Positions 15,101 through 54,989 of a stretch of DNA of 64,000 nt are shown piece after piece. The stretch covers positions 15,513,701 through 15,577,700 of the forward strand of contig NC_092662.1 in the NCBI RefSeq assembly GCF_032118995.1, read 5' to 3'. This stretch comes from Asterias amurensis (Eukaryota > Echinodermata > Asteroidea > Forcipulatida > Asteriidae). The notes beneath the pieces were generated by a model. It saw only the letters and a program-made list of their open reading frames with translations. It made no database searches and had not been told where the DNA came from. A program made the position numbers and the translations under genes. Numbering within the stretch: position 1 is the first letter of the stretch; each line of letters opens with the position of its first letter.

Positions 15101-18100
15101 CGGAGTTCAAGGTGAGTGGAAGTGTCTCTAGAAGGGTGCAAAGGTAAAAGTCTTGCAAGCAAAGGTTCAATCATTTGAAGCGTTAAGGTCATGATCTCAT
15201 GGAATCAAAAAAGAACCTTTCAAGTAAGCCTTTCTTTTTTTCTGAGTTTCATTCTCTCGTATCGCTTGGTCCAAAAGGGTATCAACATGGTGTTTTAACG
15301 GCATAAAAGCATAGATTATGCTCTTTTCAAATGTATCAATGTACAAACGACTGATCACACTACATTTAAGAATCGGAACAGTGAGTGTTGCTTAACGTTC
15401 CTATCTTTGTGTTTTGATCTGCAGTCAAATGGTTCGGAGAGTCACATAGACAGGTGGATTCTGAGTAAGCTAGCCAGCGCTGTGAAGGTCTGTGAGGATG
15501 GGTGGCCAGTCTATGACTTCCCTGGTATTACGACAGCTATCCACTCCTTCTGGCTGTATGACCTTTGTGACGTCTACTTAGTAAGTACCAACATTAATAT
15601 CCGTCACAACACTTATTGGGCACTTAATACGGTCGTTTCTAAGGGCACATTCAGTATTTTCCTGCAAGAAGGTATGTGGGACTATGTTTGAATTATGAGA
15701 TCTACTCCTTTAACACGGCATCATGTAGGTTTACAAGGTTTACAACTCTTTGTGAAATCGACCCCTGGTGTCACCGAATGGGACTCAAACCTACACTCTG
15801 CTGATCAGAAACACCAGAGTATGAGTCCCGTGCTCTTAACCACTAGGCCACGACACGACAGTTTTTTGTCCACACCTCAGCTAGGCATTCAAGTTGTAAA
15901 AATTCATCATCCCACTCTCTCTTCAGGAATCCATCAAAGCCTCTACTGCGAGGATCTGACTCCACTGTGGTTGATATTGATTGGTCAGACAGTAGGAGGG
16001 TTGACTATTCAATGGTCAGACAGTAGGAGGGTTGACTATTAAATGGTCAGACAGTTGGAGGTTTGACTATTGAATGGTCAGACAGTAGGAGGGTTGACTA
16101 TTAAATGAGGGTTAACAACATTCCTTATTCCCTTCTCTCTTCAGGAATCAATCAAGCCTCTTCTTAGAGGATCTGACTCGCCAGCTCTTGCCAACACTCG
16201 TCAGGTTCTCTACACCTGTCTGGATGTAGGTCTGCGTCTCATCTCACCCATCATGCCGTACCTTAGCGAGGAACTCTACCAGAGATTACCGCGAAGGACA
16301 GAGAATGAACCTCCGAGTATATGTGTCACTCCATACCCAGAAACAGCTCAGGTAGGACCCCCCCCCCCTACACAGATTAGGAAAATGGTGCACAATGATA
16401 AAAGTTTCAAGTCACAGACGGGTCCTTGAGGAACACCAGGCAGTTCAAGACTGCAACCAAACCAATGACAGCAATAAAACAAACTATCGTTTGTTGATAA
16501 GAGTAATATACGAGTTGCAACGTCTATTTATAACACTTCAATTGGTTGTTTTCAGAATCCGTTCTACAACGAGCAGCTAGAGGCCGAGGTCACATTGGTT
16601 CAGGACATCGTGGGTAAAGCACGATCAATGAGATCAGACTACAATCTCACCAAGCAGAAGATTGATAGTAAGTCTACCGTGTAGCTTTTTTTTTCAAATG
16701 AAACCAAGTTTCTCAGCATTTAGAGGTATTATACAGGATTTATAGAGCTGGGGGAGGGGGCATTATATCACTCAAGTCATGAAATACTTTTGACTTTTGG
16801 ATGAACAAATGCAACACAATTAGCAAGATACATTTGTTTATTGAGAAAGACTTGGACACTAAAAGCTGGGTATATCAGGTTAAAAATGCTACAGAAAAGC
16901 AGGCACTGAAAGAGTTAATAAATAGCTTTCTTATTCTTATTTTTTAGCTTACTTGAGATGCACTGACCAAGCTGTGGCAGATACTCTCAGCCAATACCAA
17001 GATCTGATCATCACACTATCATCGGCATCAGCCGTGCACTGCCTCGTTGGAACAGCGCCCCCTAGTGGCTGCGCCATGGCAACCGTATCGGACAAATGTG
17101 AAGTGCATCTGCTACTCAAGGTTTGTAAATCAACCAATCAACACAAAGAAACGACTTTTGCTTATCATTAATTAAAGGGGCATGAAGATTTTGTACATGA
17201 AAGCAGATGGAATTCATTTCTGAGGAGATAACGATCAAAGAAATATTGATGAAGAAAAATTCAGAGCTACCCACCAGGCTAGGTCGGTGGTCTAGTGGCG
17301 AGACATCTGCTCTAGCAATGCAAATGATATAGGTTTCAATCCCACCCGAGTGATTTGCCTGTGGATTTTTGTTCACAGAACTCGGGCAAAGTACCGAGTG
17401 TTTTTATACACATTGGTGTAAGGGTAGAAACAAAATGTAAGAAATATTTTTTTATTTCACAGGGGTTGATCGATTCAGAGAAGGAGATTGTCAAACTAAC
17501 TCAACGAATTGAGAAGTTAGAAGTGCAGCGGAATAAACTCCAGCAGGCCATGGCTGTTGCTGACTACGCTACAAAAGTGCCACAAACTGTGCAAGATAGT
17601 AATAAAGAAAAGGTACAAACAGGGGTTGTCATTAACACAGTATCGCAAGAGTGTTTCATTGTGAGCATTCCTCGCTCCTAACAAAATCCAACACCATAAA
17701 CTCAACACCCAAACTGTTGGACTTGCTGAATCCTAACTCCAGTCAGTGTTATGTACATGTTGTAGCCGAGCCTTCAACTCAACACCCAGACTCGCTGAAC
17801 CCTAACTCCTGTGAGTGATTATTAACTAGGGTCCTGTTTCACTCCAACAAAACAAAAAACTCCACACTCCAAACTCAACACCCAAACTATTGGACTCGCT
17901 GAACCCTAACTCCTGTGAGTGATTGACTAGGGTACTGTTTCACTCCAACAAAATCCAACAAAAATTGATAACTCAACACCCAAACTGTTGGACTCCGATT
18001 ATGGTGGTGTGCCTGGTCCCATATAAAGCATGGTCAGTTTACTGTACTAGTGCAGCTAGCTGACCAACAGAATCAAGAAACATATTGCTGGATTTTGAAG

Positions 18101-37931: not shown

Positions 37932-38894
37932 GGTCTTTCGGCAGCTGTAATCACTCAAATTTGTTCTTGTCTCAAGAAATTAAAACCCATTCCTGAAGTG
38001 AAGTTCGAGAATCTACTGTGTGTTTATACGCCGTTTCTGTGTGTGTCGTGGTGGTGTGCACGCATCCCATGCAGTGCATAATGCGTGGCCGGAGTGAATG
38101 ATTTTTGAACGTGTACTTGGGCCAATGATTATTGCAATGAAACAAACAGTAAATCTAGAAACTGCAGTATAACTTTTTTTAGCTTAAGAAATTGTTTTGA
38201 TTGTATGTGAACAAACAACAGTAAATCTTAGCTTTGAAATAAACATTAAAAAAGTTAATTCAAAAGCATAATATTATATTTATTTAGGAAAAAATAATTT
38301 AATTGAAAAAAAAAATCATCTTGGGCCCTTGAATTTTTTACACATTCTGTAAAGTCAAAACTAAACACGAGAAATTCTGAAATTCTGCTCCCGCTGCAAC
38401 TACTTCTGCATCATTTAGTCGAGTGGCCGGGTGTCTTCCATTAAAAAAAGGGGGAAATCTTGCCCTGTGACCTCCTTCATTGCAATCGAAGTGCAGACAT
38501 ACAAAATGAGATAGTAGGTCCCCCATCCCAGACCCCCACGCACCCCAAAATTGTGTCATAGCTCTTATAGTCATACCTCTGTTTACATCAAGTGTATGTT
38601 TAAATTGATTATCGTCGTTAACCATTTCTCTTTCCTCAACGCGATCTTTCAGCAAGTGGGATATTCTATTATATAGGGGGTGTTACATATATTTGTAGTC
38701 CATTAAAACAATAATTTTTACGTTAAAATATGCTTTAAATTTCTTTATTGTTATATATTTTTGCTTGAAATTGTCCTTTTTACTGCAATGAAATAAATTG
38801 ATGAGCTCTTATATACAAAAACATGTTTAACAAATAATGAATATATTTTACATACTCTGTACTCAAAATGAAAACTTCGAACCACAAATCCAAG
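37932..38894. promoter_or_regulatory. Bidirectional promoter between DOLPP1 and QTRT1
   Basis: The two start codons face apart, 963 bp from one another. The QTRT1 ATG sits in a YY1-type motif (CCAAGATGGCAGCC). The part near DOLPP1 has a purine tract and CG dinucleotides, and the middle is AT-rich. No TATA box stands out. Confidence 0.5.
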
Positions 38895-41800
38895 ATGGCA
38901 GCCCCCATAACCAAAACACCCCAAGCGCTTTCGCTGAAAGTTCTCGCTGAGTGTAGCACAACAAAAGCAAGAACATGCAAACTGAAACTTCCACATTACA
39001 CAGTAGACACTCCAGTCTTTATGCCTGTTGGAACCCAGGGAACTATGAAGAGTTTAACGACGTCACAACTCGAAAATGTTGATGCTCAGTTGATACTTGG
39101 GAATACGTATCATCTTGGAATGCGGCCGGTTAGTTTGTTTGTTTGTTTACTTTGTTTACTTGTTTGTTTGGATGATCCTCCCGAGTAAGCAAAACTCGGG
39201 GAACTCCCACAAGAGCAGAGGGTATTTATTATTACCACCAAGCTGCCATCCAATTGCCAATCTCTGTATTATGGTATAGAAACATTGGTTTAAAATAGCG
39301 TTTATGATTATGAACTGCGCAAATCAAGAATTTCGAAGAGATTATGATTTTAATTTTAGTAATTATAAATATAATTACCTTTTCTAGACGGCAATAAATT
39401 CTAGTCATTCGTGAAAATTGTGGGTAGCTTATCAATCATTCATGATTCGTTTAATTTTTATTAAAAATACCAAACAAACAAGTCAAAATACTAATTAAGA
39501 AGAGTTTACCGAAGAGTAAGTGATGTGAATGTAGCCTTGTTATGGTAGGATTCGAACCCATAACCTTATTATGTTATGCTTGCAAGTCCTGCAGTCTAAA
39601 CCACTGGACCAAGGTGGACCAAGGTGCCCCCGCCCCCATTTCCCTGAGCCTGGCCCCCTTTTTTTTTGTTTAAGACTATCTATTTCCCGGGCTTCTTGAG
39701 GGTGGTGACACAATAATATTATTATGGCCCAACATTTCGAATCTAATTTAACTAGATCAATTGTTATCAATCATTCATTGTTATTGTTCAACAGGGTCCA
39801 GAACTTCTGGAAAAAGCTGGAGGTCTTCACAAATTCATGAACTGGAAAAGAGCATTGCTCACGGTATGTGCAATTCAAACAAAAGTGGAAAAGTTCTGTT
39901 TCATGCCACCACTTTTTTATTCATTATGAAAGAAATTTAATCAAAAAATATATTTCTTTTTGTGAAAAATGAGTGAAAAAGTTGTGGCAGGATCGAAAAA
40001 GTTTTACAAAAGCTACTGACACTGTTCAGCCATATATATATATATTTCTTTTTTTTAAGTTTAGAATAGTAACATTCTTCTTGACTTTTATAATCTTCCC
40101 TGAAATCTTCTTATAAAACTTCCATTTCTCTTTCTTACCCCTTGTAGGACAGTGGAGGATTCCAGATGGTTTCGCTCGTCAAGCTGGCAGAGATTACCGA
40201 AGAAGGGGTCAAATTTCAGTCTCCATACACAAAGGAAGAACTTTTGCTGACCCCTGAGAAGTCTGTTGAAATCCAGGCTAGCATCGGAGCTGATATCATC
40301 ATGCAGCTTGATGATGTTGTCCACAGTTTAACCACAGGGCCCAGAGTCGAAGAGGCCATGTATAGGTAATGCCAAAGGTCAAAGGTTTTGATCATAACAG
40401 CTCAAGTCTTTTGACTTAAGTCTTAATAAGCTTTAGGCAAGGTTTGAATAGGTGGCTACAGCTACGGCTTGACTTCTGAGTCATCATGCATTAGGTATAG
40501 GTAGTCCTACAACACCTGCCAATTCGGATACGGCCTTACCTTAACTTTGTACTTGACTTGAGAGCAGAACCAGTCATCTTGTCATTTCACTGGTACACCA
40601 GCAGCTTTCTCCCTAAACAAAGGTCAACTGGCCAAAACCCAGCTAAACATCGCGAGCACCGCAGATACCGTGACAATTCTTTTCAAGTGTTCCTGCTTGC
40701 TAGAACACTTAAAAATAGGGATGCATTTTCAAAGCTGAACTTGCCAGTTGGATTACTTGGAGAGAACTAGCAATTTGGCCAGCGGACAACTGTTGAGGGA
40801 GAATGATGACATTCACACCATTGTCTCCAAAATGGCAGTCTTACAACTAGAATCTGATACTTGATACTTGATGAAGTAATCCCTTTACAGCTGGTAAAAG
40901 CTAAACTGGGATGATGTGCTGTGCATGACGCTCCTGCACTGAAAGCACTGAAACATTGTATCCAAATGAAAACTTGAGTTTTTGTCGGTTTTCTTTGACA
41001 GGTCTATCCGCTGGTTAGATAGATGCATCGCTGCCCAGAAACGCCCTCATGAACAGAATCTCTTCGCAATCATCCAAGGAGGTTTAGATTCTAAGCTAAG
41101 GACTATCTGTGCTAAAGGTGAGTATGTTCATCATTTAAGGAGCATCTCAAAGGTTGGAATGTTAGGAACGTCCGATAAGGGATTCTCCTGTACTTATTAA
41201 CAAAATGATGCAGTCTAGCGGAACGTTCTGTTAGTCCAATGGATTGCAGGCATGTATCAAGAGGAGCGTTCTCAGCATGAATGACTTTTGAGACGCTGGC
41301 TCCCTTACTTTTAACAGAAAACAGTTTTACAAATTTGTCAATTATATAATGAGTGAATCGTTACATTAACAACAACAAAACAAATACCAACTTTGAAGGA
41401 TCTGAAATAAAACTTGAAGAAAATTACTTTTTCTACTGCTGCCTAGCAGTTCATTAGAAGTCTTCTCTGTTTGGGTTTTACAAGTGTGAAAGTTCAGTGC
41501 TTCACAAGTTTATGTCGTTTTGTACCTTTTTCATCATTGTAATTAAGCCACCAAGCTTCAAGTATGATTTTCGATTGCAGAAATGGTTAAGCGGGACACC
41601 CCTGGCTACGCCATTGGAGGGTTGAGTGGTGGAGAAGAGAAAGAACATTTCTGGAAGATGGTGACTTTGTCGACGGATATACTGCCGAGAGATAAACCTC
41701 GATACTGCATGGGAGTTGGGTGAGACATTCATAAGATGCCATGAGACCTAACATGATCGATCCAAATCTGGGACGAATTGGCTTAGGGTTCGAAGACAAC

Positions 41801-46774: not shown

Positions 46775-49700
46775 ATGGGATCAGGTTCTTCCAAGAAGAA
46801 ACAGGAGACAGCAAGGAAGGTTACCAACGTGGTCAAGTGAGTACACAACTTGTGATTTTCAGGCATACTGATTGTGCATAAAATTACATTGTTCCTTTAC
46901 TAATTTTTGTGGGTTTACTGTCTTAATGTTTTGCAATTTTACTCTTTGGATAGTCCTGTACGGTTCTTGTATTTTCATTTGTATGGATTGCTGTATGTTT
47001 TTCTGTTGCAAATTTTTAATATTTTTTTTTTATGCGCTTGTGTACATTTTATGGAATGGGCGCAATATAAATAAACAAATTATTTATTTATTTTATTTAT
47101 AGTATTAATTTGGTCCTTGGAAAAAAGTACGAATATCGGATTGAGTACAACTGGGCTGACCTACAGCATTGTGGGTGTAGGCTTTGTATAGACTGTTTAC
47201 TTCGGGCCTTTTGAATAAACAAATCTGATTTATCCAGGGCAAAAAATCGGAAAGCAGACTAAAGTAAGAAGAATATGCCTGGATTTGTGAGTAACAATTC
47301 ATGAACCAACTAACCATATTGGTGTAGTCGTCACTTCGCTCTTGTACATGTATATGTGAAAAGTTTTTAAATGTAAAATTCTGGTTTACTGGCCCATTTT
47401 TCCACCACCTTTTTATTTTCAATTTGTAATATTTTTTTGTAATGTAAAATTGTTGTAATTCAGCCTTTGTATCTACGAGGACAGTTTTTTTTAATTAACC
47501 ATTTTATCCATAACCGTATCTTTCTATAAAACAGCGTAGCCAATGCTTTTCAGGATGCGGGGAAAAGGTCAGACGAGAAGAAGTCTCTTCAGACTGCTGG
47601 AGACAGACAAGACGAAGAAAAAGGAGTGAACAATGGAGAGGTTGTTCATCAAGAAATTTCAAATGAAAAAGGTCGGTTTATAAAAATTATTGAATTACAA
47701 GACATGGAATTTATGGGGTGTTCTTTAAAGTTATTGGAAATGAAGTAGTTGTTGCTACGAAGACCTATGCAGTTTATTTTTGTAATCATTGCCTTCCATC
47801 AGACAAACACGTCTATTTGTTATAGAATACTTGTGTAGTACCCGGCAAGGAGACATCAAATCTGTTCCTGGTCACTTTTTTCTTTTTTAAGAGTCATACA
47901 CCAATACATGTATTTAGTTTGACATTGCCGCGAGTACATTTTCTAAACTTTATATTTCACTATTATATCCACTTTAGAAAAGCAACCACTTCAGCAGAAC
48001 GGTGATGTGAGTCACGTGTTGGTACCCGACCCACCAATAGAAAACGGAGTAAATGATGACGATGCTAATGCTGATGAGCTGATGCTAAGCCATGCATCGG
48101 TTAAAATACAGAGGTAACTGCAGAGGACACATTATGATTGTTTTTATTTTTTTAGCAGATGTAATAATTGCATCAAGAATATTAGATTTTCTGATATTTC
48201 AAAGAGGCAACGAATAATAGGCGATTGCCTCCATGCCCCCTAAAAATATTATAGAGTGTAGTCAACCTGCGAAATGTATTCGATGACAATATTATTTTCA
48301 CTCTCATCTGCAAAAGGTGAAAGTCAATCCAGAATGGTAGCAATGGAAAGCATCGATAACTGCCACTTGGACAATAAGTTCATCATGTAAAAGGAAATTA
48401 ACAATTTAGGTGATTGCTATGGCCTTTTGTGCATTAAGTGCGGCTAAATTGGAGATACCAAAACCTTGGACGTACAAAGTGATTCTTTGCAATCAGTGGA
48501 CATAATCAAACTAGAAGGAGACTCTCTTTAACACGAAGAAGGTTGTCTGATTTTATGAAAAAATTATGAGTAGAAATCTGAGTAATTTGGAGGTTTATAT
48601 TTGCAGTGTGTTTCGTGGCTACCAAGAGAGAGCCCTAAGAAGGAAAGAGACTGAAATGGCGATTAAAATACAACGGTGAGTGGAACAACATGGCGACTTT
48701 TAAGTGTTTATAAACACCTCACATACATCATCAATAATGAAGTCTGATTTGAAACTTTGCATGGAGATTTGAGATTTGCGGTCGCACCATGTGTAAATCT
48801 CTTTTGTAGCGTTGGTTCTGAAAAGACCGGTGGTTGACGATCCAACGTTTCGATCAGATGCTCTGATCGTCTTCAGGAGAATTTTGAGTGGTGACTGTTG
48901 TGTAATATTGTTTTTATTATTTCTGGTTTTGAGGGGGAAACACGGGTGATAAATTTGGTCTATAAATATTCACAATCTTTTTCTTTAGGATTTACCGACG
49001 TCACTCGTCTCAAAAGAAGGAGGTCACAGAAGCCGCTGTAATGGAAACGATAGCCGAGGTAACCCCTGTACCTGAAGAAGCACCGGCAATAGAAGAGCCA
49101 GCACAAGGTACTAAAAATCACTAGAATTAAACCGGCAATAAAGGAGCCAACACATGGTACTAAAACCACTAGAATTTAACCGACAATAGAACAGCCAACA
49201 AATGGTACTAAGACCACTCGAATTTAACCGACAATAGAAGAGCCAACACATGGTACTAAAATCACTAGAATTTAACCGACAATAGAACAGCCAACACATG
49301 GTACTAAAACCACTAGAATTTAACCGACAATAGAACAGCCAACACGTGGTACTAAAATCACTAGAATTTAACCGACAATAGAACAGCCAACACATGGTAC
49401 TAAAATCACTAGAATTTAACCGGCAATAGAGCCAACACATGGTACTAAAATCAAAAGAACTTAAACAAGAAACCGAAATTCACCGACAACAGAGAGGAGC
49501 CAACATATGGTACTAAAACCACTAGAACTTTAACAAGATACCAAAATTCACCAGCAATAGAGAGGAGCCAACACATGGTACTAAAACCAACAGAATTTAA
49601 CAAGGTGTGATTATAATAATACAAAATTCTTATTTAAAACGCATTTCACAAAAACCGTCTCAATGTGCTTTACATGAGTGTCCTTGTCATTAGGCCAATA

Positions 49701-52700
49701 ACATTCCTGTCTCATCTCACTACCATGGTGCTCCAAAGGCTTTTTCAAACACAATATCAACATCTACGCTCTCATGTACCCATTTCATATCACTGGTGAA
49801 GAGAAGCAATTGCAGTAAAAAGTATCTTGCTCAAAGACACAGGTGTTACGGGTGGGATTCGAACCCACACTAAGATGACTTAACCAGCAAAACTTGTAGC
49901 GACCGAAATAAACAGGAAGCCTTCAACAGAAAAACGAATAACCATGAATTATTTTGTTTGGTATTTTGCAGATAATTGCGAGCCTGATCCGTGTAAGGCC
50001 ACCAAGGAATGGCTCGAAAAAACACCAACAAAGACTAACGTCAAAAAACAAATTGTTGGAGTTGGTAAGAAATTACTTTCATTATTTGACCCAATATTTG
50101 TGATTTGATGTAATTAATAGGTTGGCAAACTATCGTCTGGTAAAGCTGTATTTTTTTAGGTATTAAGGCAAGGTACACTTTTGGAAATTTCTCTACAAGT
50201 TAATGGCACTGGACACTATTGGTAATTACTCAAAAATAATTGTTAGCATAAAATTAACGATGTAACAAATAACGGAGAGCTGCTGTTAGTATAAAACATT
50301 ATGAGAAACAGCTCCCCCTAAAGTAACGTAGTTTTGAGAAAGAAGTAATTTTTACCTAAAGTATTAGAATTGAACTCGAGACCTCAGCTTAGGTCTCGAA
50401 TTCAAGGCATCTGGAAGCACACGAATAGTGCAACAAGGGTGTCTTTTCGTCCATTATTCTCTCTCGACTTCGACGACCAACTGAGTTCAAACTTTCACAG
50501 TTTTTTTTTTGTTTTGCATAAAATATGTTGAGATACACCAAGTGAGAACACTTTGACAATTATCGAAAGTTTCCAGTGCCTTTTATAACCAAAAAAACTT
50601 GGTTATAATATAAACAAATTGTGAGAAACGACACCCTTTGAAGTAACGTTTGTGTAGTTTTAGAAAAGGGGTCATTTTCACCTCACAATTTGAAAATGGG
50701 AAAAGGCTTCTAATGACAAGCCTTTCTCATAAATCTGAAAACAGCGTGTAAAATGTGTTTTTTCTTTTCTTATTTTCTTATAACTTTGATGACCGAGTGA
50801 GCCCAGATTTTCACAGATTTGTTATTTTATGCATACGATGGGTACACCAAGTGAGGATAGTGGTTAAGTTGACAACTACCAAAAGTATATTACTGCATTT
50901 AACAAAATGCCAAGGAATTGCAAAGTTTTGTTAAAACATTCAGCAGTTTTTAACCAAATATATTTTCATTTCTGACACGGCAGGACAACAGACCAAGGAG
51001 GATTTCATTGCATTCCAAGACGAAATCACAGAATTGAAATGGTACGCTGAACAACAGTTAGAGAAAGCCATTTGTGGAAGTGAATTCGTGGGGCCAAAAA
51101 TTGTGGTGAGTTCAAGTCAACAAGATGCCTAGTCTTGAAGTCAAGACGGTAATTGTTAAGCGCGGTGTGTAGTTACAGCGCGGCGTAGCTACGGGGACGA
51201 TGCACACACCCTCGATCCCAGTATGTGTGTGTGAGTCAGTTAGAGCTGCCTCGCGCTACTTACGACTGTTGCATGTGTTGCATGGAATTTCTACCATGAT
51301 AAAAACATGACTATATAACAACCAAATTTCCACATGATTTTCAGGATGACGAGCAAACAACAGCTGAATACCGGTAACAAGCAATATGCAACTCATGGAA
51401 ATTTTGTTGTAAATCCTGTTTTTATAAAGGAAGAAATTTCATGCTAAGCAAATTGTTGTGCTTAGCAGCTCTTTGAAATTGGTGTTGTCGGCAGCAGAGT
51501 AATGGTCAAAACCTGGTAACATGAGTGTTTACTTGTACTCTCTTTTTTCTGCAGTTGGTTTCGTCAAAGGTGCCGAAAGGCGACTTGTTGACGAAGATCG
51601 TGAAAGATAATGTTCTTATATTTCACTATGTAAGTTGATTCTTTAATTTCAACAAACAATAACTTAATTTAATTCTTCTCAAAATTTAAATAAACGTATT
51701 TGGAACTTGAAAACAATTTGTTTTGTCAACCTTTTCACAGTTTGTTTGTCTAATTTTTTTCACGTCATTCATCTAATAGAAAAATGGTAATCACGAAGTT
51801 ATAGTGATAGAAATTACAAATGCCAATATTTAATAATTGCAAATGTCAATGTATAATAATAACTATTTAATTTTTAACTTTCCCCCAGGATTTCAAAAAG
51901 GATACGTTTGATAATTTGCTAGGTAAGAATTCAAGTTTACAAAATATCAACTCTTAATAATTCGACACATGATTGTGCATCAAGTAAAACTGTGATCAAA
52001 ATGTACTTTAAAATATTTGTATATATCTTTGGAAATTTCAATTTATTTATTCATTCATGTTGTTCACCTGATCCACAGAAAACATTCATGTTAATCTCGA
52101 GGCTTTCAAACCGGGGAGTAAAGCTAGATCGATCTGCATTTATTGCCAGGTAATTATTTGTTTTTAGAAATAAAAAGTATTAAGTAAATATTTTGGCGTT
52201 TTGTACGATATATTGGTGCAATGCTTGGTTAATTTTGATAATATTTTGACTTTATGCCTGGTTTAACTTTGTACAATATTTTGACGTCATGCTTTGCTAA
52301 CTTTGTACAATATTTTTGCGTTATGCTCGATTAACTTTGTACCATGTTTTAGTTGTTTGTTTTGCTGATTTTGTACAATATTTTGACGGTATGGTATTTT
52401 CTTTGTACAATTTGTTTACTTCATGATTTGTTAAAGCAATTATACACTTTCGGAACAGAAAAAGAAAAAAAGGTCACAGATTTACAAATAACTTACAGGG
52501 TTTACAGAAGGTAATGGTGAAAGACTTCTCTTGAAATATTATTCCATGAAATGCTTTACTTTTTGAGAAAACATTAAAACAATTATCAATTCTCGATGTC
52601 GAGAATTGGGTTTTTATTGTAAACACATGTCATGACACGTGTCACGTGCTGAAACAAGGGTGAGTTTCCCCCGTTATTTTCTCCCGACTCCGATGACCGA

Positions 52701-54989
52701 TTGAGCCCAAACTTTCACAGGTTTATTATTTTATATACAAGTTATGATACACGAAGTGTGGGCCTTTGGACAATACTGTTTACCAAAAGTGTCCAATGGC
52801 TTTAACTTTGTAGATAATTTTGACTATTATGCTCGGTTAACTTTCAATACAATTCTCAAATTTATGCTTGGTTTCAGGGTGGTCCTGGTTTCCTGTACAT
52901 TAGAAGAGGAAAAGTCGTTACTGTCGCAAAGTTGAAGAAAGAAAGAGAACAGGATCAAGTCAGGTATGCCAAGATTCAATTTAACATCAAAGGAAAGAAA
53001 CTAATTTGTAAGCAACATTTACTTAAAATTGGGCCATGATAATATGACTAAGACAACTAGTAATTGAATTTCAATGATGAATATTAACATCAGTCGAAAC
53101 AGACAAAGACTTGATTTTTTGCAGTAACCTCGACTATAGTTTTTTTTTCTACAGTGCATTTTGAAAAATTTCTTTACACTATTCACTCTCAAAGGTTCTT
53201 CAAGGAAATGGGCAAGCTCATGTCAAAGAGAGAACCTGCAAAGTCTGTCATACACGTGATGGGATGTAACATGCTTGGAAACGAGAAAGGGGAACAGGTT
53301 TGTAAATCTAGCAATTACTTTGTGTATTACGTAGGATTTGAAACTTTGCATGGTGTGGAGTATAATCATGCGAGGTTTTGAGGTAGCACTATGTGTAAAA
53401 CTCTTCAAAGAGTAGTGGTGGTTCCGAGAAAATCCCGTTGTTTGACAAATCAACGTTTCGATCAGTATGCTCTGATCATCTTCAGAGCATATGCCTAACT
53501 GATTGAAACTCTGAAGAGGATCAGAGCATACTGATCAAAACGTTGAGCTGTCAACACCGGTTCTTTTCGGAACCACCATTAGTCAAAAGAGATTCACACG
53601 TGCTACAGCAAAAACTCACCCGATTTTGTATATTACCTCATTTACATTTGAATTCCAATCCACCATTGTGTGACAACAAAAGTCTCTACCCATCCATGAT
53701 GAAGTTTGCTGAATGGAAAGGTCAAGGTTTACTGAGTATTTCAATTAGTTTTACTTGCATGCTTGGTTACCTATACAAAACATCATAACAAACCTGACAA
53801 ATGAGTTATTTAAAATGCATTTCACTGCCACATGATATGACCCATTCTAAAAATGTTGCCTTATCACAGCATGAAATAAATATTGTACTTTTCTTATTTT
53901 TGCACCTTCCAGCTCTTTACTCATCTTCAAGGAATCATGAAACCAAATATTGTTCGATTTGAGGCACCCCTCGAACTATCGCCTGCAGGTATGTATCTTT
54001 AAATCTTTTAAAGGCAGTGGACACTATTGGTAATTGTCAAAGACTAGCCTTCACAGTTGGTGTATCTCAACATTAGTCTTGAAGTCAAGACGGTAATTGT
54101 TAAGCGCAGTGTGTAGTTACAGCGCAGCGTAGCTACGGGGACGATGCACACACCCTCGATCCCAGTATGTGTGTGTGGGTCAGTCGCAATTAGAGCTGCC
54201 TCGCGCTACCTACGACTGTTGCATGTGTAACATCGCACTGTGACTGTTGCATGAAAGGCAGACAAAATAGGCAGCGCCAAACGACTTGTCATCAAGTCTA
54301 TCTCAACATAAGCATAAAATAACAAACCTGTGAAAATTTGAGCTCAATCGGTCATCGAACTTGCGAGATAATAATGAAAGAAAAAACACCCTTATCACAC
54401 GAAGTTGTGTGCGTTTAGATGGTCGATTTCGAGACCTCAAGTTCTAAACCTGAGGTCTCGAAATCAAATTCGTGGAAAACTACGTCTTTCTCTAAAACTA
54501 CGGCACTTCAGAGGGAGCCGTTTCTCACAATGTTTTATACCATCAACCTCTCCCCATTACTCGTCACCAAGTAAGGTTTTATGCCAATAATTATTTTGAG
54601 TAATTAATCATTCAATAAAGGAACAAGTTGCATCAGATTTTAGAGGTAAACAAAACTCGTGGAATATTAATTTACGATAGGCTAACTTCATTTTTCAAAA
54701 CATTTAGGATAGAAAAATTCGACATTTCCAAGACGGTTCAATGATAATTCAAAACAGATATTTCGAATTTATAAGAAATTTCTTTCAAAGCTATACTTCT
54801 CCTGACAAATTATGTTTTTAATTTCTACCATAGGTCCTTCTGGTGGGTAACCAGTTTGCAATAACTTTTTCTATTTTTTATTTTTTTTTATTTTGAATAG
54901 GTGTGGAAATGGTTGAAACATACTTCGACTTTGAGAAATATAAGACATGGCGATCGAACAAGCATCTGAAGTTAGACTTGGACTTATAA
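46775..54989 (+). CDS. Myristoylated IQ-motif protein with a DUF4347-like domain
   Basis: I do not know a named gene for this. Exons: 46775-46836, 47535-47671, 47978-48113, 48607-48675, 48989-49107, 49972-50064, 50984-51105, 51555-51629, 51889-51922, 52079-52149, 52878-52963, 53195-53297, 53913-53988 and 54901-54989. All splice sites are GT-AG, all phases agree, and the result is 423 residues ending in TAA. The N-terminus MGSGSSKKK fits N-myristoylation (Gly2, Ser6, basic run). Residues 20-105 are acidic and likely disordered. IQ motifs at about 110-120 (IQSVFRGYQER) and 133-143 (IQRIYRRHSSQ) predict calmodulin binding. Residues about 245-390 resemble DUF4347: KIVLVSSKVP, then SICIYCQGGPGF (301-311), then SVIHVMGCNMLGNEKGEQLF (352-371). 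The His expected before Gly-x-Pro-Gly is Gln306; Cys359 is kept. The gene model is firm; the domain call is from memory of the family pattern, and function is unknown. Confidence 0.88.
48740..48885. repeat. Repeat E copy
   Basis: GAAACTTTGCATGG, GCACCATGTGTAAATCTCTT, GGTTCTGAAAAGACC and GATGCTCTGATCGTCTTCAG in order; single, non-palindromic copy in intron 4 of the IQ gene. Confidence 0.55.
49083..49605 (+). repeat. 48-bp minisatellite spanning the exon 5 / intron 5 boundary
   Basis: The first unit starts inside the exon (CCGGCAATAGAAGAGCCAGC) and contains the true donor (CACAAG/GTACTA). Seven further units at 48-49 bp spacing follow, then about three longer ones of 63-68 bp. Each copy repeats ACAATAGAACAGCCAACACA and GGTACTAAAA. 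The donor becomes ACATG/GTACTA in the copies, still with GT. It makes a long open frame on the minus strand only because 48 is a multiple of three. Confidence 0.9.
49605..49895 (-). mobile_element. SINE-A copy, reverse
   Basis: Body blocks AAACGCATTTCACAAAA, TGCTCCAAAGGCTTTTTCAA and CACTGGTGAAGAGAAGCAAT, then a reversed B box (GGATTCGAACCC) and GATGACTTAACC. Same unit as 57678-58000 in the other orientation. It lies in intron 5 of the IQ gene. Confidence 0.6.
50162..50902. mobile_element. TTAA element split by a MITE-A copy (50200-50586)
   Basis: Outer ends are TTAAGGCAAGGTACACTTTT and CCAAAAGTATATTACTGCAT + TTAA. Inside its left end sits a MITE-A with termini TGGCACTGGACACTATTGG and TTTCCAGTGCC. 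The outer element is MITE-A-like in its right half (GATGACCGAGTGAGCCC, TTTTCACAGATTTGTTATTT). It lies in intron 6 of the IQ gene. Confidence 0.65.
51131..51285. mobile_element. MITE-G copy, truncated right
   Basis: AGTCTTGAAGTCAAGACGG start and ACGATGCACACACCCTCGAT core match 54072-54298 almost base for base, but the right end is missing. It lies in intron 7 of the IQ gene. Confidence 0.7.
51290..51484. mobile_element. MITE-B copy lacking its left end
   Basis: CAAATTTCCACATGATTTTC, GAATACCGGTAACAAGCAAT and AGCAGCTCTTTGAAATTGG; the left GGGCCC arm is absent where MITE-G stops. Confidence 0.55.
52160..52430 (+). repeat. Degenerate short tandem repeat in intron 10 of the IQ gene
   Basis: A unit like TTTGTACAATATTTTGACGT + CATGCTTGGTTAAC recurs five or six times at about 45-55 bp spacing, and once more after the MITE-D insertion (52806-52870). 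MITE-D therefore landed inside the array. Confidence 0.6.
52431..52805. mobile_element. MITE-D copy, full length
   Basis: TTAA at both ends; central ATTCTCGATGTCGAGAAT. It interrupts a tandem array in intron 10 of the IQ gene. Confidence 0.8.
53330..53610. repeat. Repeat E copy (palindromic)
   Basis: Two inverted halves around 53485, with GTTCCGAGAAAATCCCG and CGGTTCTTTTCGGAACCACC. Outer TAGCACTATGTGTAAAAC and ACACGTGCTACAGCAAAAA ends pair. It lies in intron 12 of the IQ gene. Confidence 0.6.
54008..54608. mobile_element. MITE-A copy split by MITE-G, right end lost
   Basis: It starts with TTAA and the full left terminus. It is interrupted at 54072-54298 and resumes with AGCATAAAATAACAAACCTG, then ends at TTTTGAGTAATTAA without the final CCAATAGTGTCC. 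It lies in intron 13 of the IQ gene. Confidence 0.8.
54072..54298. mobile_element. MITE-G, complete, with 10-bp target duplication
   Basis: The insertion is flanked by TATCTCAACA on both sides (54062-54071 and 54299-54308). Without it the MITE-A host sequence reads through. Ends TAGTCTTGAAGTCAAGACGG and CGACTTGTCATCAAGTC are imperfect inverted repeats. A 9-10 bp duplication with inverted ends would fit a Mutator-like element; the superfamily is inference. Confidence 0.8.

Follow-up and report, generated by a model that had tools for sequence, protein, structure and literature searches.

The closest described system is vertebrate NSMF/Jacob (formerly NELF), whose N-terminus is myristoylated (the peptide GAAASRRR binds UNC119), which is bound by Caldendrin at an incomplete IQ motif bearing a bipartite nuclear localisation signal (NLS), and for which calpain release, nuclear import and CREB docking are described (PMC2253627, PMC8662305). 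In the accessible parts of these papers, the experiments on Caldendrin binding, calpain release and nuclear import are in vertebrates only. NSMF has also been linked to CREB shut-off. A link to Kallmann syndrome (PMC4792503) is termed still disputable (PMC11246878). Here we analyze a 64,000-nucleotide window of the starfish Asterias amurensis (contig NC_092662.1, positions 15,513,701 to 15,577,700 of the forward strand), in which a gene at 46775..54989 on the + strand encodes a protein with an N-myristoylation-type start, IQ motifs and a tail resembling the bacterial domain DUF4347. With a probability of roughly three in four, we read it as the starfish NSMF/Jacob orthologue, a membrane-to-nucleus messenger with a folded, catalytically inactive DUF4347 docking tail. 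The gene model, the orthology, the order of the parts, the DUF4347 homology and the loss of the histidine of the bacterial family were computed, and the fold is predicted.

Gene model and identity

The 14 exons splice into an in-frame coding sequence (CDS) of 1272 nt that encodes 423 amino acids and has a single terminal stop; the two alternative frames of the spliced CDS contain 22 and 30 stops. Each of the 13 introns is GT...AG and the phases are consistent, so the 14-exon model that an earlier note on this DNA had claimed holds. The features, in window coordinates, are as follows.

46775..54989, + strand: NSMF/Jacob orthologue, 14 coding exons, 423 amino acids (spliced model, homology, genome search)
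46775..46836, + strand: exon 1; MGSGSSKKK start (46775-46801), N-myristoylation-type (Gly2, Ser6, basic run)
47535..47671, + strand: exon 2; low-confidence linker (structure model)
47978..48113, + strand: exon 3; 3' end within IQ motif 1 (residues 106-120, from 48094, continuing in exon 4)
48607..48675, + strand: exon 4; end of IQ motif 1 (complete IQSVFRGYQER), bipartite-NLS-like stretch from residue 123, start of IQ motif 2
48989..49107, + strand: exon 5; end of the IQ motif 2 region, linker
49972..50064, + strand: exon 6; linker, start of a helix
50984..51105, + strand: exon 7; most of helix 195-236; from 51094, strand 1 of the DUF4347-like domain
51555..51629, + strand: exon 8; DUF4347-like domain
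51889..51922, + strand: exon 9; DUF4347-like domain
52079..52149, + strand: exon 10; ends with the codon of Gln306 (52147-52149), which aligns with the bacterial His
52878..52963, + strand: exon 11; GGPG turn, DUF4347-like domain
53195..53297, + strand: exon 12; Cys359 (codon 53265-53267) aligns with the bacterial Cys
53913..53988, + strand: exon 13; the DUF4347 profile match ends (residue 381)
54901..54989, + strand: exon 14; C-terminal helices of the predicted folded domain, stop codon

The closest database protein, from Asterias rubens, is 97% identical end to end (best of 19 matches, E up to 10), differs at 13 residues and is named NMDA receptor synaptonuclear signaling and neuronal migration factor-like. 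Because it is also 423 amino acids long, the joining of exons 1-5 to exons 6-14, as the earlier note had it, matches an independently annotated genome; on the basis of this full-length protein and the common order of parts, we reject an exon-fusion artefact. The remaining rows of the 19 come from starfish, sea urchins, sea cucumbers, a hemichordate, amphioxus, a fish and a bird, either under the NSMF name or uncharacterised, and include two nameless proteins; P0002 and P0004-P0007 show 43-59% identity across 99-100% of the starfish query. A whole-genome search with the starfish protein (E up to 10) placed 13 of 13 matches inside one gene, on contig C15, and at that sensitivity the gene is single copy. 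On the strength of the whole-length identity to the A. rubens protein, we assign the gene as the orthologue of NSMF/Jacob. The expectation that a membrane-tethered, calmodulin-responsive version in an animal would be new therefore fails: except for the DUF4347 name, the combination has been studied since 2008 (PMC2253627, PMC8662305), and the myristoylation signal, the IQ-like helix and the conserved tail are already described for Jacob.

The gene also contains repeats. A 48-bp tandem repeat (49082-49464; 8 copies, 90% matches) is followed by a 68-bp repeat, and the whole region (49082-49604) takes in the end of exon 5 and sequence of intron 5. The 48-bp repeat starts inside exon 5 and duplicates its 3' end and splice donor; nine donor-like stretches of this kind occur, exon 5's own included, the other eight each a possible decoy donor. 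Introns 7 and 13 share a common repeat (51130-51278 and 54074-54228; 93.5% identity over 155 columns).

Homology of the tail to DUF4347

The Pfam model of DUF4347, PF14252, aligns with residues 245-381 of the whole starfish protein at E 3.6e-5 and 24.0 bits, 0.6 under the cut-off of 24.6, and passes that cut-off with the tail alone (E 5e-6, 26.8 bits). Twelve of 15 aligned homologues match it at E up to 1 (best 1.5e-6), and a precomputed PF14252 label is attached to 6 of the 19 homologues, all echinoderm (P0002, P0003, P0004, P0007, P0008 and P0009; P0001 is without it). Two fish NSMF-family entries, P0038 and P0064, are titled "DUF4347 domain-containing protein" in the database. The homology is thus present in machine annotation and, as far as we have seen, is not discussed in print; among papers mentioning DUF4347 (for example, PMC8262886 and PMC6744689), none is on NSMF by title, in a search covering few subscription journals.

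Because the Pfam model may itself include animal sequences, we built a bacteria-only set from 36 matches in 8 of 13 genomes searched, keeping 28 of 30 loci (L143 is partial and L157 has two stops). The homologue set comprises 131 proteins, its vertebrate part taken from the best 120 of 754 matches. Tails could be cut from 119 of 125 proteins, six lacking the start motif used for cutting, and the invertebrate profile holds 16 tails, with truncated P0016 excluded. Comparison of the 28 bacterial domains with these 16 tails by hhalign gave a probability of 90.6 and E 1.3e-6 over 122 columns, and the full-length alignment gave 89.8 and 1.8e-6. This match exceeds chance, because 20 column-shuffled versions reached E 0.079 or worse and a reversed version 0.097. 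The 102 vertebrate-set tails matched the bacterial profile at E 1.8e-5 (probability 78) and five intact tails of a distant group at E 5.5e-4 (probability 30). With the bacteria-only profile, hmmsearch reached E 1e-3 or better for 112 of the 119 tails; the other seven, including P0018, were unreported. Together with the two Pfam scores, these results support the DUF4347-like tail that the earlier note had recognised. The bacterial GGxWxLE C-terminal part has no counterpart in NSMF, the alignment stopping at profile position 120-122 of 164; we therefore claim homology for the core domain only and regard NSMF as a divergent branch, not as a full-length member.

A second animal family appears to carry the domain. 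In ECT2L (PDB chain 11xu_A1, about residues 288-390), a 103-residue DUF4347 stretch scores 30.5 bits (cut-off 24.6); against the NSMF profile the chain reaches E 7e-5, and against the single tail E 0.013. Among 20 of the 80 papers mentioning ECT2L, no title concerns its structure, and the search found no paper that brings ECT2L together with axonemes and cryo-EM. Chains of TALE repeats stood at the top of the PDB profile list (E 6.3e-6, above ECT2L) and were rejected as repeat artefacts, no single stretch of them passing. A PF14252 search of the starfish genome gave no match, which is not evidence of absence, as the coding sequence of the domain is spread across eight exons and control genomes were also silent. 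A degenerate-pattern search found no NSMF relatives in prokaryote genomes, and a DNA search with one exon found no match in phage records.

An altered active site

The joint alignment places the His of the bacterial SHG motif on Gln306 of the starfish protein, after a predicted strand at 300-304, and the Cys of the bacterial YGC motif on Cys359, after a predicted strand at 353-357. The His column is His in 26 of 28 bacterial domains (2 Glu) and in none of the 119 NSMF tails (117 Gln, 1 Ser, 1 Met). The Cys is present in 28 of 28 bacterial domains and in 115 of 119 tails, the exceptions being Asn or Ser in P0007, P0018 and P0019 and a gap in truncated P0016. These counts are dominated by vertebrates (best 120 of 754) and do not represent independent events. 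Additional distant tails have Ser (P0126), Asn (P0127) and, by eye, Asn (P0128) in the Cys column; Cys is absent from all five distant-group tails.

Because the His of the bacterial family is missing from every NSMF tail, the tail is most likely a pseudoenzyme used for binding, and we infer that it is inactive. The caspase-like (clan CD) idea of the earlier note survives in part: the His and Cys positions fit, but the His itself is gone and caspases do not outscore unrelated folds. In the comparison of the predicted fold, caspase and CHAT rows score level with dehydrogenases, with the N-terminal domains of GluA and with a de novo design, so we do not accept kinship with either by fold. Nor do we class the tail as an active clan-CD-like cysteine peptidase, in which a His would follow the third core strand and a Cys the fourth: the starfish has Gln306 in place of the His, and none of the tails has His there. 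The site is under strong constraint, with Cys in 115 and Gln in 117 of 119 tails, as would suit a tail that is still an enzyme, pairing its Cys with another base or using the Gln in a non-proteolytic activity. We consider this unlikely: the Cys is Asn in the sea cucumber P0007 and Asn or Ser in the five intact distant-group tails, and so is dispensable in lineages that retain the rest, and the bacterial-family His is absent throughout.

Two published statements differ from a folded DUF4347-type tail. In its accessible text, a 2021 review describes rodent Jacob as largely unstructured and with no known domain organisation, and gives Jacob two putative zinc fingers, one of them a CH-HC finger at residues 413-465, a span of 53 residues (PMC8662305). 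A C-x5-H...H-x3-C pattern over exactly 53 residues is present in 96 of 102 vertebrate-set tails (5 have Y for the first H and 1 is unmatched), and from the equal span we take these four residues to be the printed finger. This conservation, like the review's combination of a zinc-finger prediction with CREB binding to the C-terminal part (PMC8662305), would favor a zinc-binding unit in place of a pseudoenzyme, an account we find quite improbable. All four residues occupy DUF4347 domain positions beside the former active site (the Cys preceding the Gln, the residue that follows GGPG, the fourth-strand His and the former active-site Cys), and the pattern is mostly broken outside vertebrates, with CHHC in 1 of 14 scored invertebrate deuterostome tails and 0 of 4 scored distant tails (P0016, P0096 and P0128 gave no match to the zinc-ligand pattern). 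The starfish has C, F, H and C. The CH-HC of the NSMF tail is thus probably not a zinc finger; a vertebrate-only metal site formed in three dimensions is possible. That the resemblance to DUF4347 is only a shared Rossmann-like pattern, with no common descent, is very improbable.

N-terminus and IQ region

The start MGSGSSKKK, with Gly2 and Ser6, agrees with the N-myristoylation signal proposed in the earlier note. Among the 131 homologues, a Met-Gly start is seen in 99, of which 96 also carry Ser or Thr at position 6; these comprise 83 of 108 proteins in the vertebrate set, 9 of 15 invertebrate deuterostomes and 4 of 8 distant proteins. Several of the 32 without a Met-Gly start look, by eye, like partial or alternative models. 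The invertebrate deuterostomes with this start are starfish, sea urchins, a sea cucumber and amphioxus; the hemichordate P0010 (MGTVLGKSR) does not have it. The accessible text of the 2021 review restricts a functional myristoylation motif to mammals (PMC8662305). The presence of a myristoylation-type start in echinoderms and amphioxus suggests that this start is older than mammals, the motif denoting a potential for the modification and not the modification itself, and would extend the history of NSMF accordingly.

The tandem IQ motifs noted earlier were recovered by Pfam (PF00612, E 4e-6) as two stretches, the best at residues 106-120. A bipartite-NLS-like stretch, RRKETEMAIKIQRIYRR, lies at residue 123 of P0001, and such a stretch is close to the IQ region in 9 of 12 proteins checked. 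Whereas Jacob has two incomplete IQ motifs in the accessible text of PMC2253627, the starfish protein has a complete IQxxxRGxxxR (IQSVFRGYQER). The complete form [IVL]QxxxRGxxxR occurs in 11 of 15 invertebrate deuterostomes and 3 of 8 distant proteins, several of the remainder being truncated, and in 1 of 108 in the vertebrate set, where the site reads MQxxxRGxxxR, a mild change of Met for Ile, in 55 of 108 and has an IS form in 42 of 108. An ancestral calmodulin partner at the complete motif, which marks potential binding only, stays a suggestion because 55 of 108 vertebrate-set sequences carry just this mild change. In the distant group (P0018, P0019 and P0126-P0131), four members have MG(S/A)IVS-type starts and IQ motifs are present; P0129-P0131 end right after the first IQ motif, as if the gene model were cut.

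Proposed role and meaning

As in the vertebrate protein, a myristoylated N-terminus would hold starfish NSMF at the membrane. Because the IQ helix overlaps the bipartite-NLS-like stretch, a calcium sensor on that helix would mask nuclear import until released; this sensor is Caldendrin in vertebrates and may be calmodulin in invertebrates. The folded, inactive DUF4347 tail would serve as a docking platform for partners. That a sensor binds, that the starfish protein moves from membrane to nucleus and that its tail acts in docking are inferences from the parts described above. In a wider scheme, which we consider doubtful, Jacob/NSMF and ECT2L would both carry a bacterial-type DUF4347 domain acquired by early animals and made into pseudoproteases, the NSMF groove would hold peptide ends, and an ancestral calmodulin-binding IQ motif would have decayed upon a vertebrate switch to Caldendrin. 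In its boldest form, the NSMF tail may capture the alpha-internexin fragment that calpain makes and that stabilises the Jacob signalosome; if so, an inactive protease would be reading what an active one has produced, en route to the nucleus.

What is useful, and can be tested, is the new reading of the Jacob tail; the starfish gene is ordinary in itself. If a folded DUF4347-type pseudoenzyme is recognised in NSMF, it would supply a construct boundary (starfish residues about 240-415) and a surface to mutate, as well as a reason for rechecking the zinc-finger model.

Other features of the window

An exon of a queuine tRNA-ribosyltransferase gene lies at 38841-39185 on the + strand (TGT, PF01702, E 7.2e-19). 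Exons at 15299-17681 on the + strand probably belong to a valyl-tRNA synthetase gene: they encode a tRNA-ligase anticodon-binding domain at E 1.5e-7 and, at 24.9 bits against a cut-off of 25.9, a valyl-tRNA-synthetase C-terminal arm.

Comparison with known systems

Tce1 (PA0256), an Hcp3-bound type VI effector of Pseudomonas aeruginosa (PDB 9qpe), has His186 and Cys240 as a putative cysteine-protease dyad (PMC13323088); NSMF lacks the His. ECT2L, an animal protein of which a chain has been solved (11xu), differs in its host protein and in the aligned position, which reads SDG rather than SHG or QGG. The DUF4347 domains of bacteria, represented by cyanobacterial proteins, share the same region and motif columns with the NSMF tail. 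The open frames that surround them are 678 to 8110 residues long in 33 of the 36 matches, a broken match and two partial ones being excluded. Vertebrate NSMF/Jacob differs from the starfish protein in that the starfish linker is shorter and the CH-HC residues are not conserved. The two share, in the same order, a Gly2/Ser6 myristoylation-type start, a low-confidence linker, an IQ-like helix with a basic bipartite stretch and a conserved tail, and the orthologues carry the NSMF name in the database.
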